From IMG/VR virus record IMGVR_UViG_3300030328_000995, positions 1-21,705 of that record: a stretch of 21,705 bases of DNA. One strand, written 5' to 3'. Each line of letters opens with the position of its first letter. The stretch's first letter is position 1. Source of the stretch: a virus. Made by a program: the position numbers and the translations under genes. The notes beneath the pieces are model-generated. The model had not been told where the DNA came from and did not search any database. It saw only the letters and a list, made by a program, of their open reading frames with translations. Shown here in pieces: positions 1-19,192 of this stretch.

Positions 1-411
1 TATCAGCGTAACGAACAATGGGAACAAGAAGTGCTTGAACCAACAGTAATTGATTTTAATAATCGTGTTGCTAATTTAGATTGGTATGATCCTTTTGATA
101 CCAAAGAAGCTGGATATATCACACCGCAAGACAATGGTGAATCTACTGAACTAACAAAGCAAGACCAAGTACAGATAGATAATATTGTGGCTTGGGAAGC
201 ACAGATAAAGAATCTAAAGGACAATATCGAAGAAGCTAAGAAAAGCATTATGATGTCAATAAAAGATGCCAAAGAAGGCTATTCTGAAAGCCATAAGGTC
301 GTGTGGCAGACTGTTAATTACAAAGCACAACCTGAGAAGGTAGTTCCAGCAAAAGAAGCCTATACCTCAAGAAGATTTAGTATCAAAGAATTACCTAAAA
401 AAGATGGTTGA
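1..411 (+). CDS. YqaJ-type phage exonuclease/recombinase, C-terminal fragment (5' truncated by window edge)
   Basis: The reading frame is open from base 1, so the GTG at 31 is an internal Val codon and the gene begins outside the window. The visible 136 residues are the C-terminal part only: a long charged helix (roughly residues 55-95 of the fragment, IVAWEAQIKNLKDNIEEAKK) followed by a short beta element (HKVVWQTVNYK) and the terminal RRFSIKE. This helix-then-beta ending is typical of phage YqaJ-family nucleases, which resect double-stranded DNA ends for single-strand annealing recombination. The catalytic residues would lie upstream and cannot be checked. It is on the + strand, opposite to the late genes, as expected for an early replication/recombination module. 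The family call rests on the tail alone; another coiled C-terminal domain protein is possible. Confidence 0.62.
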   Translation, partial: YQRNEQWEQEVLEPTVIDFNNRVANLDWYDPFDTKEAGYITPQDNGESTELTKQDQVQIDNIVAWEAQIKNLKDNIEEAKKSIMMSIKDAKEGYSESHKVVWQTVNYKAQPEKVVPAKEAYTSRRFSIKELPKKDG

Positions 412-1141
412 AAGTTTTGGCATAATTTATATGTGTCATTTACCAAACAATAAAAGATACATAGGATTAACAACACAATCATTAAAAGAAAGAATAAAAG
501 GACACTACTCAAAAAAGGTTAATAGACCTTTTTATAATTATTTAAAAAAATTTAAAAAACATGAAGTGTGCTGGAAAGTTTTAGATAAAGCAGAAAATCT
601 AGAAGATTTAAAACAAAAAGAAATATTTTATATAAAAAAATATAAAACATTTTTTTTTGAAAATAAAAATGGTCTTAACTTAACAAAAGGTGGAGAAGGT
701 ACTAAAGGACATATTCTTAATAAAAATCAAAAAAACATTTTGCGACAAAGAACTTTAGAACAATTTAGTAAACCTGAAAATGTAGAAAAACATTCACAAA
801 TAACAAAAAATTACTTTTTAAATAATCCTCAAGCAAAAGCAGAACATAGTAAAAGAATGAAAAAATGGTTTCAAACAGAGGTAGGATTAAATCATGCAAA
901 AAAAACAAGCAAAATAAATAAACAAAATTTTAAGAGTAAAAAATTTTTAATTGATTGGTTAAAAAAAAGAAATGGAATACTAAAACCTTTTATGGTGTTT
1001 AATCAAAATAAAGTACATATTGCAACATTCTTAATACAAAGAGATTGTGCAAAGTTTTTAAATATAGAATATAGAAATCTTAATGCTTGTTTAAAGAAAA
1101 AAAGAAATAGATGTGGTGGATATTATTTTAAATATATCTAG
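404..1141 (+). CDS. GIY-YIG homing endonuclease with C-terminal IENR1-type DNA-binding motif
   Basis: The 245-aa protein has the GIY-YIG catalytic domain at residues 5-95: G6-I-I-Y9, Y19-I-G21, a helix arginine (R30), the metal-binding glutamate (E73) and the following asparagine in GLNLTKGG (N92). Residues 105-190 are a Lys-rich linker. Residues 194-245 (VFNQNK, RDCAKFLNI, ending GGYYFKYI) match the IENR1/NUMOD repeat, a helix-turn-helix DNA-binding module of intron-encoded and free-standing homing nucleases. Such enzymes cut a specific allele lacking the gene so that repair copies it in. The start overlaps the upstream exonuclease gene by 8 nt and has no strong ribosome site. The gene is much richer in A and T than its neighbours, with many A runs, which fits a recently acquired selfish element. 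No intron or intein is visible around it, so it appears free-standing. Confidence 0.85.
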   Translation: MVESFGIIYMCHLPNNKRYIGLTTQSLKERIKGHYSKKVNRPFYNYLKKFKKHEVCWKVLDKAENLEDLKQKEIFYIKKYKTFFFENKNGLNLTKGGEGTKGHILNKNQKNILRQRTLEQFSKPENVEKHSQITKNYFLNNPQAKAEHSKRMKKWFQTEVGLNHAKKTSKINKQNFKSKKFLIDWLKKRNGILKPFMVFNQNKVHIATFLIQRDCAKFLNIEYRNLNACLKKKRNRCGGYYFKYI

Positions 1142-1569
1142 CTATCTATAACCAATTTATAGTTTCTATCGGCTCGTTTCTTTACTTGTACCGCATAAGT
1201 AGAATCTAATAGTTCTTCACCAGCTAGTTCAAAATCTCTTTCTTCCATAGCTTCAAGCATCTTCGTGAATTTTAGTAAATTTCTGATGCCCAAATTGAAA
1301 CACATATCTGCTAAGACTAATCTGACATTGTAAGGCATGGATTGCCAAAAAGGTATGTTTCTGTCTAAATCTGAAAAGACACCATCCATGTCATTCTTTA
1401 ACATTAACTCGGCTTCATCAATAGACACTCCATTGTCAGTTAGATTACGACCAACACCTATGGTCGTTTTATCGCTAGTGCATTGATAAGGTTTTAATTC
1501 AATGCCTTCATTCTTGATAAGCATTTCTTTTAAATCATCAATCAGTTCTTTGGTAACACCTGTTTCCAT
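1138..1569 (-). CDS. Endolysin: GH24 (T4-type) lysozyme with E-C-T active site
   Basis: This 143-aa protein hydrolyses the peptidoglycan glycan backbone to release progeny. The GH24 pattern is clear at residues 20-43: N-E21-G-I-E-L-K-P-Y, then C30-T-S, then T36-I-G-V-G-R-N-L. By spacing, E21 is the general acid (T4 E11), C30 takes the place of T4 D20, and T36 matches T4 T26. Cys at the second position occurs in many phage GH24 enzymes, and a Cys substitution at D20 is known to leave T4 lysozyme active, so the enzyme is probably functional. Residues 55-140 carry the C-terminal helical lobe (MCFNLG). No signal peptide or SAR anchor is visible, so release should depend on the holin just upstream. 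Its ATG overlaps the holin stop as TAATG; its own stop shares CTAG with the convergent nuclease gene. Confidence 0.92.
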   Translation of the reverse strand: METGVTKELIDDLKEMLIKNEGIELKPYQCTSDKTTIGVGRNLTDNGVSIDEAELMLKNDMDGVFSDLDRNIPFWQSMPYNVRLVLADMCFNLGIRNLLKFTKMLEAMEERDFELAGEELLDSTYAVQVKKRADRNYKLVIDS

Positions 1570-1991
1570 TATGGTTTGTATGTATCTTTGACGTTTTCTT
1601 CTCGCATATTATTTCTTGCGACACCTTTAAACTTTTCAAAACTACGCATACCACCTAAACCTAACATTGATAATGTTAAAGTCATAAGACCTTCTGTTTC
1701 AATATCAGGTGGCACTATATCAAAAGAAAAAGTCCAAACTATCCAATTCATTATCGGTGCTAAGAAATACGCCCATGCTAATCCCAATGCACATATCCAC
1801 ATGATGGCAGGTCTTGCACCAGCTACAAAGATAGAACCATGTTTAGCTTGTTCTAAATTTATTTCATTTTGTGATTTTTGCAAATCAATCATTTGTGATT
1901 TGATACTTGATTCAAGTTCCATACGTTTAGTTTTATCAGGTATGGCTTTACCGATTAAATCGCTTATTGGTTTAAAAAATTTATCAATCAT
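1569..1991 (-). CDS. Holin, GTA-type 3-TM family
   Basis: The protein is 140 aa. Residues 1-50 are an amphipathic, charged N-terminal arm. Residue 54 onward contains the family signature G-A-R-P-A-I-M-W at about 58-65, followed by hydrophobic stretches at about 62-80, 82-92 and 101-114, and the ending LGLGGMRSFEKFKG. This is the pattern of the 3-TM holins of gene transfer agents and related phages, which open lesions in the inner membrane so that the cytoplasmic lysozyme can reach the wall. A good Shine-Dalgarno (AGAGGG, 8 nt upstream of the ATG) supports the start. It sits between the MscS-like gene and the lysozyme, and the lysozyme ATG overlaps its stop by 1 nt, so the two are probably translationally coupled. 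Confidence 0.87.
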   Translation of the reverse strand: MIDKFFKPISDLIGKAIPDKTKRMELESSIKSQMIDLQKSQNEINLEQAKHGSIFVAGARPAIMWICALGLAWAYFLAPIMNWIVWTFSFDIVPPDIETEGLMTLTLSMLGLGGMRSFEKFKGVARNNMREENVKDTYKP

Positions 1992-2346
1992 TGTCTTTGC
2001 CCTCTAATATGTTTTTTAGTTTTTGTCGCTTTTCATAAGCAGAATCTTGATGCAAGTCTTTATCAACTATCTTTTCTAATTTAAGGGATTCAATCTTAGT
2101 ATTGCTAATATAACGCCATGTGTAGCCATCTCGACCATAAACACCAAAAACAGTAGTACCCATACCAATCTTGATTATCATGGCTTGTTCTCCATCTAAT
2201 AAGACCTTATCGCCTTCGTTGAATTGTGAATTGAGTTTAAATTTAAGACCTTTGATAAAAGATACCGAATAATCTTTAAGAGCAAGACCACCTAAGACAC
2301 TTGCAATAAATATTGAGATTTCAATATAATATTCTTCAATGTTCAT
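1984..2346 (-). CDS. Minimal MscS-like membrane protein (pore helix plus beta domain) in lysis cassette
   Basis: The 120-aa protein (126 aa if the ATG at 2364 is used) has one N-terminal hydrophobic helix (IEISIFIASVLGGLALKD), a charged linker, and then a small beta domain: FNEGDKVLLDG, then VFGVYGRDG, then W-R-Y-I-S-N-T-K-I. This follows the order of the third transmembrane helix and the beta domain of bacterial MscS channels (GLAL...S...G, FxxGDxV, T-T...DG, IPNxxI). The first two MscS helices and the cytoplasmic vestibule are missing; the last 35 residues are charged and probably helical. The ATG at 2346 is preferred because it sits just after the upstream stop (2348), but neither start has a clear Shine-Dalgarno. 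It overlaps the holin start by 8 nt, so it belongs to the lysis operon. The MscS resemblance is from memory; a role in lysis or membrane tension sensing is inference. Confidence 0.6.
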   Translation of the reverse strand: MNIEEYYIEISIFIASVLGGLALKDYSVSFIKGLKFKLNSQFNEGDKVLLDGEQAMIIKIGMGTTVFGVYGRDGYTWRYISNTKIESLKLEKIVDKDLHQDSAYEKRQKLKNILEGKDND

Positions 2347-2347
2347 T

Positions 2348-2584
2348 TCACATGAAGAAGGCATTAATCACTAAAGAAGAAAGTAAACCAATAACAATTC
2401 CTGCTATTTGCCACAATCTTTTATTGGTAGTATTTATATCCGATTCAATAGAATCTAATCTGCGAAAATTCTCCTTCCATTTTTGTTCGCATATTCTTTC
2501 ATGCCTATCTAAAGCATTTGCAACTTGCTGAACAGTTGGCTTTTTAGTCGATTGTCTTGGTTTCGCTGTCGCTTTCTTCGGCAT
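2348..2584 (-). CDS. Small coiled-coil protein with C-terminal membrane anchor (XhlA-like)
   Basis: The protein is 78 aa. Residues 1-18 are basic (PKKATAKPRQSTKK), residues 20-56 form a charged helix with coiled-coil character (RRLDSIESDINTTNKRL), and residues 57-76 are a single hydrophobic transmembrane helix ending two residues before the C-terminus. This layout is that of XhlA-type and other small membrane proteins that cooperate with holins. The start has a good Shine-Dalgarno (AGAGGT, 7-8 nt upstream). The first 41 nt overlap the end of the preceding gene in another frame. Its place directly before the MscS-like gene, holin and lysozyme argues for a lysis role; an alternative is an Rz-like accessory or a membrane anchor for another lysis protein. 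Confidence 0.65.
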   Translation of the reverse strand: MPKKATAKPRQSTKKPTVQQVANALDRHERICEQKWKENFRRLDSIESDINTTNKRLWQIAGIVIGLLSSLVINAFFM

Positions 2585-3158: not shown

Positions 3159-4583
3159 TTATTCTCCTTTGAGTGTGTTAATTTCAGATTGTAAGGCTTC
3201 AATCTGTGTTTGCTGTTCTTGAATTGCTTTAGTTAATAAAGGTACTAATTTACTTTGGTCTATACCTTGATAATCAGGTTCACCTTCTTCATTAACAGCA
3301 TCTTTTTCACCTGTAATAGCTTCAGGAACAATATCAGAAACTTCATGTGCTAAAAAGCCATCTACTGTTGTATCTTCATTAGATATAAAATTAAATCTAG
3401 CTGGTTTAAGTTGTGCAACTCTTGATAAAGCATCAAATTCATAATTAACATTTTCTTTTAATCTATAGTCTGAACTTGTTGAATAAGTAGTAGTTGTGCC
3501 TGTAGTGGCAATTCCACCTGCAAAAGTAGCTGAAGAATCAGTATTTCTGAAAAATTGTATCTGTGATACAGCACTAGAACCTGTTTGTCTGAACATCATA
3601 TAGGAGTTTGTTGGTTCTAATGACATGGATGAAGTACCTGTTCTTGTAGTTGTAGCACCTATTACCAAATTACCTGCGGCATCAATACGCATTTTTTCTG
3701 TTACAGAATTAGCATTAGATGTATAAAAAGCTAAACCACCTGACCTATTTCCTGCACTTGTTCCATCAGCTTCTTTAAAGGCTTGAAGCCAAGCAGCGTT
3801 TGTACTTCCTAATTGAAATATTAATCTTGCACCTTCATCAGTAGAGCCTGATGATTGATTTGAATTTACAATTCTTACATCAGGAATACTACCAGCACCA
3901 CCATCTCCACCAAACTGAGCAACTGTTGATTCTCCTACATTATCGTGTACTACATCAAGTCTATAAGCAGGAGTTTGAGTTCCAATTCCAACATTTCCAC
4001 CATTTTCTATAGCAACTTTTGCATTAGAACCAACTGTTGAACCTGTGCCTATAAGTAAATCATCTGCACTATCATCTAAGCCAATATAAAAATCTTGTGC
4101 ATTACCATCAAATATTAATGCTGTATCTTCTTCTCCACCATCACCAATAGTAATTTTTGGTGTTGTTCCTTTCATAACTAAATGACTGTTTGTGAGAGTC
4201 ATAACATCAACAGCACCTACTCTAAAATCTATTTGATCGTCTGTATCTGCTGTTATAGATGTATCAGCATCAGCATCTAAAATTAATTCTTGTCCATTTA
4301 TATCTACTGTTCCTGTAGTGCTTAGATTACCATTTACTGTCAAAGCACCTGATGTTGCATTATCAGCAGTAATTGAAATAGGTATTGTTATCCAAGCATT
4401 GTTTGCAGAATTTCTTAGTTTTAATAAATTGTTTGAAGTGTCAATCCACCATTCATAAGCAAATGTTGTTGAAGGTGCAGATGAACCTGAATTGTTTGAA
4501 ACGATTGCATCTAGGGCATTATTTAAGTCTGTTCTAAAGTTTGCACCTGATTGGTTCGCTATATCGTAATCGTGTTGAGCCAT
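3159..4583 (-). CDS. Tail fibre with C-terminal S74 intramolecular chaperone domain
   Basis: The 474-aa protein is a receptor-binding fibre or side-tail protein. Residues 1-70 are an N-terminal attachment-type region (ANFRTDLNNALDAIVSN, WWIDTSNN). Residues 71-210 are short beta repeats (LTVNGNLSTTG, ITIGDGGEEDTALIFDG, ADDLLIGTG, GNVGIGT) of the kind seen in many marine phage fibres. The C-terminal 105 residues are the S74 self-cleaving chaperone: S371-D-Y-R-L-K376-E-N carries the Ser/Lys dyad with the usual spacing of five, followed by LKPARFNF, DGFLAHEVSDIVPEA and a coiled-coil ending (IQEQQTQIEALQSEINTLKG). After trimerisation the chaperone is expected to cut itself off before S371. The start directly overlaps the stop of the tip-protein gene. 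Host specificity should reside in residues about 210-370. Confidence 0.9.
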   Translation of the reverse strand: MAQHDYDIANQSGANFRTDLNNALDAIVSNNSGSSAPSTTFAYEWWIDTSNNLLKLRNSANNAWITIPISITADNATSGALTVNGNLSTTGTVDINGQELILDADADTSITADTDDQIDFRVGAVDVMTLTNSHLVMKGTTPKITIGDGGEEDTALIFDGNAQDFYIGLDDSADDLLIGTGSTVGSNAKVAIENGGNVGIGTQTPAYRLDVVHDNVGESTVAQFGGDGGAGSIPDVRIVNSNQSSGSTDEGARLIFQLGSTNAAWLQAFKEADGTSAGNRSGGLAFYTSNANSVTEKMRIDAAGNLVIGATTTRTGTSSMSLEPTNSYMMFRQTGSSAVSQIQFFRNTDSSATFAGGIATTGTTTTYSTSSDYRLKENVNYEFDALSRVAQLKPARFNFISNEDTTVDGFLAHEVSDIVPEAITGEKDAVNEEGEPDYQGIDQSKLVPLLTKAIQEQQTQIEALQSEINTLKGE

Positions 4584-14442: not shown

Positions 14443-16386
14443 TTAACTTGCGTTACAGAATGAAACTGGATGACGTACCGCCACGTCTACACTCTGAAGC
14501 GCCACGATTCGTACTGTTCCAGAAGTAGAGTTAGAGTAAGGATCAACAGTAATGTCTAAACCGCCAAAAAACCCAATCAATAGGTCATTGAAGTTTCCGA
14601 ACACATAGTTATTCGCAGTAATTTGATTAGATACGACTACTGGATAACCATTAACCATGCCATTCTCAGCCACGAATAAACCACTACCTGAATCTTTAGC
14701 AGTAGTTTTTAGCGTACCGAAGTTAGCTGGATTAATGATGTAAGCTAAATCGCCCACTAAAGCATTATCTACAGCAACACTTGTTTCAATTGAAACCATT
14801 TCTGCAAAAGTTGGTGCAGCAGCACTACTTAAAGAAACAGTATTGATACCTGAAGTGTTAGTGATACCTCTTGGATTTCCACTTGAGCCACTACCTTCTA
14901 AAGCACCATCATCAATTGCAATTGCCATTGATTTAGCTAAATCATCACGTATTAAATTTTCAACATCCAAAGATGATTGAAGCATTAATTGCCTAGTGAC
15001 ATCTGTATGTACACCAACAGTTTTTGGAGACATAGTTACAGAGCCAATTACCATTTCAGACTCACCTGATGCACCACCTTCCGCACTAATAAAAGCAGCA
15101 GAAGCAGCAGATGTTTTCTTAGGAATCTTAACATCGCCTTGCAGTCCATTTAGGTTTGTAGCCAATGGCATTACAGCAGATGCGTTTCTGAGTGTGTCAA
15201 TGAAACTTTCAGGTCTGAAATCTTGTCCAACAAGACCAGCATCGTCAGATGCATTCAAATCCCTTTTGTTCCAATTAGCCATAACTTCAGGCGGTAACAT
15301 AATACCTTGTGCAGTTCTGCCATAGTGTTTAGATGCTTCTTCTGAACATTCAAATTCAAATTCAGCTTCCCTTTGTGCCTTTCTGTCAGTTGGATTAGCT
15401 AAAGCATTGATTGCTTTCATAATCGAAAACTGACGTACTTCCTTTTTATTCATGCCAATCTCAGGAGTTTCTAAAGGCTTATCAGTCGCTATTTGGTCTA
15501 ATAAGATTCCTCTAAATTCTTCTACTGAGTTACCATCTTGAATAGCCTTGTCAGCTAAGTCTCTTCTGTTGTGTCTAACAGCTAAATCCATAATTTCTTT
15601 AGAATTTCTAACAAATTCGGCTTTAGCTTCAGCAACAGATTCTTGCCTAACTTCATCAAGGTTTATTTCATTTTTAACTTCTTCAGTCATTGTTTTTACC
15701 TTTATGGTTGTTTGTTTATCTTCAGAACGTCCTACTCCGACAGCTTGTGATTGATCTGCTGGTACAGAAACAACCGACACCTCTAAAGGTGTAGTTGATA
15801 CTCTGAACATCGGCTTATCATCTTGGTTGCCACGCATACGTTCCATGCCATTTATCTTATAGCCAACGCTGATATTTTGACGAATACCATCTCTGACATC
15901 TTGATAAATTTCTTCTGCGAGTTCACTTCGACCAAAGCGAACAATTGCCTTCGCACTTTTTTCAGCAGAATCAATTTCATATCTTTCGACCACACCAATC
16001 TGTTTAGTCATGTCGTGATCTAAGAGTAAAGGACTTCTGCCACTACCAATAAAGCTAGTGTCAATATCCTCTTCAGAATGTGAGATTACTTCCATGCCAA
16101 AATCTCTTTCAACAGGCTCTTCGGAACTAACTCCGATTCTCACTCTTCTTTTTTCTTCATCGATATAAGATGCTCTTGAAAGGTCTAGAGTTCGATAGAC
16201 AATATCAGACTTATCTAGTCTTTCTTCTTCATCTTTATCTTCTTCATCATGGTATGGTTGAGATTCCATCATTTCTTTGTCATCATCTTCCATACTTTCC
16301 ATATCCTCATGTTTAGCAAAAGATACTACATAAGTATCGTCTGTTTCATCAACATTTAGGATATGTCTATCTTCTTTATATTCCAT
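14443..16386 (-). CDS. Fused prohead protease (S78) and HK97-fold major capsid protein
   Basis: The 647-aa polyprotein has three parts. Residues 1-60 are strongly acidic. Residues 62-220 are the S78 (HK97-type) prohead protease: YRTLDLSRASY, LLLDHD with H124, IGVVE, NISVGY with S173, and the closing LEVSVVSVPAD with E202, giving a plausible His-Ser-Glu triad. Residues about 235-345 are a helical linker that could act as the scaffold or delta domain. From about 360 to 647 runs the HK97-fold capsid protein (MLPPEVMANWNKRDL, GQDFRPESFIDTLRNASAVM, PKKTSAASAAFISAEG, GSGSSGNPRGI, ADNALVGDLAYIINP near the A-domain, and AVRHPVSF). The protease should cut the N-terminal part away during maturation. 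The start is supported by AGAGGA, 7 nt upstream. It follows the portal by about 80 nt. Confidence 0.92.
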   Translation of the reverse strand: MEYKEDRHILNVDETDDTYVVSFAKHEDMESMEDDDKEMMESQPYHDEEDKDEEERLDKSDIVYRTLDLSRASYIDEEKRRVRIGVSSEEPVERDFGMEVISHSEEDIDTSFIGSGRSPLLLDHDMTKQIGVVERYEIDSAEKSAKAIVRFGRSELAEEIYQDVRDGIRQNISVGYKINGMERMRGNQDDKPMFRVSTTPLEVSVVSVPADQSQAVGVGRSEDKQTTIKVKTMTEEVKNEINLDEVRQESVAEAKAEFVRNSKEIMDLAVRHNRRDLADKAIQDGNSVEEFRGILLDQIATDKPLETPEIGMNKKEVRQFSIMKAINALANPTDRKAQREAEFEFECSEEASKHYGRTAQGIMLPPEVMANWNKRDLNASDDAGLVGQDFRPESFIDTLRNASAVMPLATNLNGLQGDVKIPKKTSAASAAFISAEGGASGESEMVIGSVTMSPKTVGVHTDVTRQLMLQSSLDVENLIRDDLAKSMAIAIDDGALEGSGSSGNPRGITNTSGINTVSLSSAAAPTFAEMVSIETSVAVDNALVGDLAYIINPANFGTLKTTAKDSGSGLFVAENGMVNGYPVVVSNQITANNYVFGNFNDLLIGFFGGLDITVDPYSNSTSGTVRIVALQSVDVAVRHPVSFCNAS

Positions 16387-18745: not shown

Positions 18746-19192
18746 ATGATTAAACAAATAATAAATAAATTAAATAGTACAAGTAATTTTTCTATGACTT
18801 GCTTTTTAGAAGAAGCAATTTTGTGGAAAGATATGTATGAAAAGCTAGATATACCTAGTTGTGATTTTAAGGAATTGCAAAACTTTGATATTTCAATATC
18901 TGATGTAAAAGGAAAATCTAATTTCGATATTTATTTCAATGATTTAAAATTAACTATTATAGAATTTTTAATAAAAGATTATTTTGACCTTAGAAATAGC
19001 CATAGTTATGATTTCGAAGTAGAAGAATTATTTGAAGGATGGCTCATAAGTGGTGGTTTGCATGAATATTTTTTAGCAGTCTATCCACATCTTAATCCTC
19101 TTAATTACAAGATTAATCAAGATTTTGGTAGAACAGAAAAATCTAATCACTTGAAAAAAATGCTGATTGGTAAATTTCATACATATTCTTAA
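18746..19192 (+). CDS. Autonomous cargo gene of unknown function (moron-like)
   Basis: I do not recognise this 148-aa protein. It is acidic to neutral, soluble, with no signal peptide or clear membrane segment: a helical N-terminus (IKQIINKLNSTSNF, MTCFLEEAILWKDMYEKLDI), a central beta-rich part (NFDISISDVKGKSNFDIYFNDLKLTIIEFLIKDYFDL) and a C-terminal part with FEVEELFEGWLISGGLHEYFLAVYPHLNP and KKMLIGKFHTYS. The start has an AAGGAG Shine-Dalgarno 6 nt away. It is the only + strand gene in the structural module, splitting TerL from gpW, and carries its own promoter candidate and a strong terminator. That design is typical of cargo genes acting outside virion assembly, such as anti-defence or host-modifying proteins; this is inference from context only. 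Confidence 0.8.
   Translation: MIKQIINKLNSTSNFSMTCFLEEAILWKDMYEKLDIPSCDFKELQNFDISISDVKGKSNFDIYFNDLKLTIIEFLIKDYFDLRNSHSYDFEVEELFEGWLISGGLHEYFLAVYPHLNPLNYKINQDFGRTEKSNHLKKMLIGKFHTYS

Follow-up and report, generated by a model that had tools for sequence, protein, structure and literature searches.

The window analysed here, a 21,705-base stretch of a virus record with 33.8% GC, encodes a true but minimal homologue of MscS, and its homology to TM3 and the beta domain of that channel is strongly supported. Such very short relatives of the bacterial pressure-relief channel occur in marine phages. The best explanation, to which we assign a probability of roughly 0.55, is that this minimal MscS homologue would form a ring-shaped pore, which is made together with the holin of a lysis cassette and tunes lysis. 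The relevant features of the window are the following:

1138-1569, minus strand: Phage_lysozyme endolysin (PF00959; Pfam E-value 2e-9), the gene after the holin
1569-1991, minus strand: GTA_holin_3TM holin (PF11351; Pfam E-value 5e-13), directly downstream of the MscS-like gene
1984-2364, minus strand: gene for the MscS-like one-helix protein, of 126 aa as the longest ORF and of 120 aa from the probable start codon at 2346
2065-2223, minus strand: MscS beta domain, residues 48-100 (FNEGDKV..DG..GYTWRYISN), from alignments, the AF2 model and fold comparison
2230-2340, minus strand: TM3-like helix, residues 9-45, from the AF2 helix (residues 9-44) and mapping to E. coli MscS; TM3a about 12-30 and TM3b about 32-45, with K30/D31 at the position of the MscS Q112/G113 kink
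2348-2584, minus strand: 78-aa protein with a charged N-terminus and one C-terminal TM helix, XhlA-like by layout only

The longest reading of the MscS-like gene on the minus strand comprises 126 codons. In relatives of the protein, the start codon is consistently that of M7, which is ATG or often GTG, and in the window the M7 ATG abuts the upstream stop codon as TGA-A-ATG; both observations make 1984-2346 (120 aa) the probable true extent of the gene. The sole hydrophobic stretch of the protein covers residues 11-29 (KD19 maximum 1.47), and the hydrophobicity profile contains no second TM helix ahead of the beta domain. An earlier note on this DNA had described a single hydrophobic helix and, after it, a beta domain with its motifs in MscS order, and indeed GGLALKD, FNEGDKVLLDG, GRDG and WRYISNTKI all lie in this ORF in that order.

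When searched alone, the window protein had no match in Pfam, PHROGs or PDB (phmmer), and BLASTP against E. coli MscS returned an E-value of 7.4. Thus, the relation to MscS becomes visible only with a diverse alignment. More than 110 close relatives were present in IMG/VR, and divergent phage members were found with a DNA pattern for the helix-to-beta stretch. Alignment-based scans then widened the family, the last two giving 488 and 445 relatives in overlapping sets with duplicates kept, and the matches to the family in IMG/VR number more than 440. The members that were read out are about 104-157 aa long and share one common plan. Alignment A5 comprises 36 members that are 31-92% identical to the window protein, and ten of its positions are invariant (G39, F42, E50, G67, F73, G80, W83, Y85, N88 and K95). 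The median dN/dS in the MscS-like gene is 0.069, and the gene is under strong purifying selection.

Aligned with a reference of 30 PF00924 genes and E. coli MscS, A5 reached an hhalign probability of 97.4% (E-value 1.5e-11, 81 columns); the helix alone gave 87.2% and the beta domain alone 89.3%. The reversed alignment scored 0.4% and eight column shuffles 0.1-5.0%. Since a DNA pattern that fixes MscS-like positions could bias the selection of members, hhalign was repeated with only those members found without the helix pattern, and the probability was still 97.1%. The earlier note had named a profile probability well below 80% as one that would speak against the resemblance to MscS; the resemblance is thus borne out, also by the structural comparison described below. 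When the A5 profile was run over 16 whole bacterial genomes, all 22 places found at E <= 1 coincided with PF00924 genes, as compared by coordinates and with a mild bias because the genomes had been reached via an MscS-type pattern. In a profile search of 177,635 PDB sequences, the nine best matches all belonged to the MscS family, with weak E-values from 0.04. Moreover, PF00924 is the Pfam family that most members hit; it was matched by 10 of the 36 members of A5, one of which lies above the curated cut-off (22.6 vs 20.2 bits), and NCBIfam MscS models match family members as well. The alignment with E. coli MscS passes from helix to beta domain without a gap (G26 = G108, F48 = F130) at about 20% identity, and in a small tree built from this 90-residue core the phage proteins group together in a single clade with a support of 0.75.

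The structure model points in the same direction. With 12 close sequences as input, AF2 gave a poor model (pLDDT 52). The AF2 model of the window protein has moderate confidence (pLDDT 72.3, pTM 0.45), with a pLDDT of about 85 in the beta domain. The top 50 Foldseek matches of the predicted structure were all of the MscS family (best E-value 5e-5), and VIA-align superposed the model on residues 92-180 of 2oau with a Z of 8.7 and an rmsd of 3.6 A over 87 residues. The model and the Foldseek matches contain the beta-domain fold after TM3a, kink and TM3b as in MscS, and a short helix is predicted for the tail that follows the beta domain. In BFVD, the best matches to the model were three viral proteins of 104-138 aa without names.

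The order of TM3 and beta domain is common to the phage protein and E. coli MscS (PF00924; PDB 2oau, 6rld), and residues of the pore lining are retained. The seal positions V23 and L27, which correspond to MscS L105 and L109, carry an aliphatic or aromatic residue in 35 and 36 of the 36 members, respectively, and the kink glycine G39 (MscS G121) is invariant. However, E. coli MscS has 286 aa compared with 120 aa in the phage protein, which lacks TM1, TM2, the N-terminal anchor, the cage and the alanine face. That the rest of MscS is missing had been stated before and is correct: with a single hydrophobic segment, too few residues precede the helix for TM1 and TM2, and the roughly 10-60 residues beyond the beta domain contain no alpha/beta cage with side portals. 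The packing alanines of MscS TM3 (A98, A102 and A106) are replaced by bulky residues, small residues recur at positions 18, 22 and 26 of the phage helix, and the G+A content of the helix is 15% in the phage family vs 40% in the MscS references. Thus, helix packing must differ from that of MscS. The lost alanine face would also suit a protein that is no channel at all, in which the TM3-beta module survives as a scaffold anchored in the membrane, or as a poison subunit interfering with host MscS, and so would E50, W83, Y85 and K95, which are invariant in the family and absent from E. coli MscS. We regard this alternative as unlikely, since the positions of the hydrophobic seal and the kink glycine are conserved and co-assembly with the host channel is improbable at such low identity.

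MscS channels are thought to need TM1 and TM2 for sensing membrane tension. As both are absent, it is doubtful that the phage protein is mechanosensitive. Acidic residues before the helix and positive charges after it suggest an N-out/C-in topology as in MscS.

Among known systems, the closest architecture is that of MscS2 from the microsporidium Nematocida displodere, a eukaryotic parasite gene to which the phage protein is likened by architecture only. MscS2 consists of a TMH3-like helix and a beta domain only and was reported to be a heptamer, the number of TM helices being left open by the authors (PMC11262690). The phage protein has this same minimal layout. The MscS of Trypanosoma cruzi lacks TM1 and the C-terminal cage and is nevertheless a mechanosensitive heptamer with a conductance of 478 pS (PMC12334622). 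The fold of the phage model matches this channel (PDB 9bgq) with a Z of 7.7 (VIA-align), but TcMscS has an extra TM helix before TM3 that the phage protein lacks. Viral MscS proteins have been noted as well. Aureococcus anophagefferens virus, a giant algal virus, encodes a putative MscS of 261 aa with three TM helices (PMC6163359), compared with one in the phage protein. Furthermore, gp51 of the cultured marine Paraglaciecola myophage PANV1 matched MscS 6RLD by HHpred with 99.7% and has one marginal TM helix; it is noted there in two sentences and is likened to the present family by description only (PMC9239159). Thus, the TM3-beta architecture in microsporidia, MscS homologues in giant viruses and a passing mention in PANV1 are already known. 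The open-access papers searched contained no account of this group of phage proteins, nor of a lysis cassette with an MscS-like gene.

In cultured phages, tblastn with the window protein and the members L342, L309 and L351 gave no match at E <= 1, and L421 and L497 gave nothing below E 0.4. Plasmids searched with one family member contained no match, no relative turned up when species genomes were scanned for exact peptide patterns, and no PHROG entry was found for the family. The missing PHROG entry and the lack of matches in the cultured phage records searched explain why routine annotation misses the family.

The structural genes of the window phage are of the siphovirus type, and its terminase is nearest to those of Roseobacter phage CRP-821 and relatives (47% identity). 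The major head protein (14443-16386, minus strand) has a further match to a 'major head and protease' family, so that capsid and protease are apparently fused. An orphan 148-aa ORF without a Pfam match (18746-19192, plus strand) reads in the opposite direction to the terminase and portal operon genes on either side of it, and a tail-fibre-like protein (3159-4583, minus strand) carries a Peptidase_S74 intramolecular chaperone domain close to its end. Beside the lysis genes, again on the opposite strand, there is a homing-endonuclease-like ORF (404-1141, plus strand; phrog_314, E-value 1e-17; weak I-HmuI NUMOD match).

In the lysis cassette, the holin ATG overlaps the stop codon of the MscS-like gene by 8 nt (ATGATTGA), and GAGGG, which resembles a ribosome-binding site, is located within the MscS-like gene. 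The three-TM holin named in the earlier note is confirmed by its match to PF11351. The MscS-like protein itself matched no holin family, PF11351 included, in Pfam or PHROGs; one member of the family hit NCBIfam TIGR01593 at the noise level (E-value 0.094). For the 78-aa protein encoded upstream, the described layout of charged N-terminus and C-terminal TM helix holds, but family profile searches gave no XhlA match and no family match at all. XhlA was therefore rejected as a family name for this gene, the likeness being one of layout and not backed by homology. Sequence inspection of the window lysozyme revealed no N-terminal signal, TM or SAR helix, so that the enzyme still depends on a separate large-hole holin. 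Through a pore of MscS size, only ions and small solutes could pass, and the MscS-like pore itself would not release the lysozyme.

The position between a one-TM protein and the holin, with co-translation, could be taken to mean that the MscS-like pore acts like a pinholin, collapsing the membrane potential and thereby triggering the holin or starting lysis. Small TM proteins are indeed enriched among the neighbours of the family (12 of 31 clusters vs 10.5% of genes, by an approximate test in which one-locus genes are non-independent). However, a small pore cannot release a lysozyme that lacks a SAR or signal sequence, and for over half of the distinct members no holin was recognised at a distance of up to three genes, the holin count being a lower bound. 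This makes a pinholin-like effector the least probable of the readings considered here.

Across the family, a GTA-type holin lies within three genes of the MscS-like gene for at least 61 of 145 distinct proteins and a lysozyme or M15 endolysin is nearby for at least 43 of the 145, both counts being lower bounds because the contigs are incomplete. In the 42 loci with the holin called immediately downstream, the two genes overlap by 8 nt in 33 and by 17 nt in 9. The holin linkage occurs in two separate clades, that of the window and one around L328. The gene is therefore found beside GTA-type holins in other phages too, but many relatives lie away from lysis genes. Some sit between the neck genes and the terminase of T4-like regions, others close to genes for tail fibres or next to a gene for a replication helicase; neighbours called neck, terminase or helicase were so labelled by reading their sequences, except where the analysis named them. 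Moreover, in the cultured Methylophilales phages MEP301 and Venkman, a small one-TM protein, the holin and an M15 endolysin follow each other in the same order with no MscS-like gene. The lysis regions of cultured phages of Methylophilales and Roseobacter that share this holin family gave no profile match that would point to a diverged copy upstream of the holin.

In phages without the GTA holin, a small membrane protein of about 116 aa and unknown function (phrog_10198) is repeatedly encoded one or two genes away from the MscS-like gene and may be a functional partner (L489, as the gene just upstream of 6004, L458, L495, L497 and L444). At L425 and L427, a multi-TM protein of 113-115 aa without a clear family match is encoded directly downstream, overlapping the MscS-like gene, between the genes of the small and large terminase subunits.

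Because members exist outside lysis cassettes and cultured sister cassettes lack the gene, the MscS-like gene is an accessory in the cassette and not the lysis hole. The proposal that it is a new way of making the lysis lesion is unsupported as stated, given these same facts and a lysozyme that needs the holin. The description as a phage-encoded, minimal MscS-like protein in a lysis cassette is right for the window and its lineage. The varied settings and the sister cassettes without the gene would also agree with an osmotic safety valve that has no bearing on lysis timing, which protects the membrane of the infected cell from tension and for which the lysis cassette is merely one convenient late locus. 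We consider this doubtful, though less so than the scaffold or the pinholin-like effector, because the protein has lost the sensors TM1 and TM2, the holin gene is overlapped by 8 nt in locus after locus and the holin linkage appears in two clades.

According to the preferred reading, in which the minimal homologue is a ring pore tuning lysis, the protein most likely inserts into the inner membrane with its N-terminus out and its C-terminus in. TM3 and the beta domain would assemble into a homo-oligomeric ring with a narrow pore, and Nematocida MscS2 supports the view that so stripped a protein can form a ring (PMC11262690). Pore formation by the phage protein is likely. The protein would be co-translated with the holin, presumably late in infection, and a leak of ions and small solutes or a relief of tension while the holin builds up could tune the timing of lysis; ion or tension relief by the putative pore is plausible. 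A wider version, which we put forward tentatively, is that single-helix MscS pores are widespread in uncultured phages and that, in one lineage, such a pore has been recruited to the lysis cassette, where it is co-translated with the holin and modulates it.

If such a recruitment has occurred, the protein would join holins, pinholins and antiholins as another type of membrane protein in lysis, and if the copy in the lysis cassette alters lysis timing, osmotic channels would be linked to phage lysis. If the reading as pores is true, the phage proteins would be among the smallest functional MscS channels. Finally, a large family that consists of TM3 and beta domain only provides many natural minimal constructs for questions of how MscS pores are built and gated.
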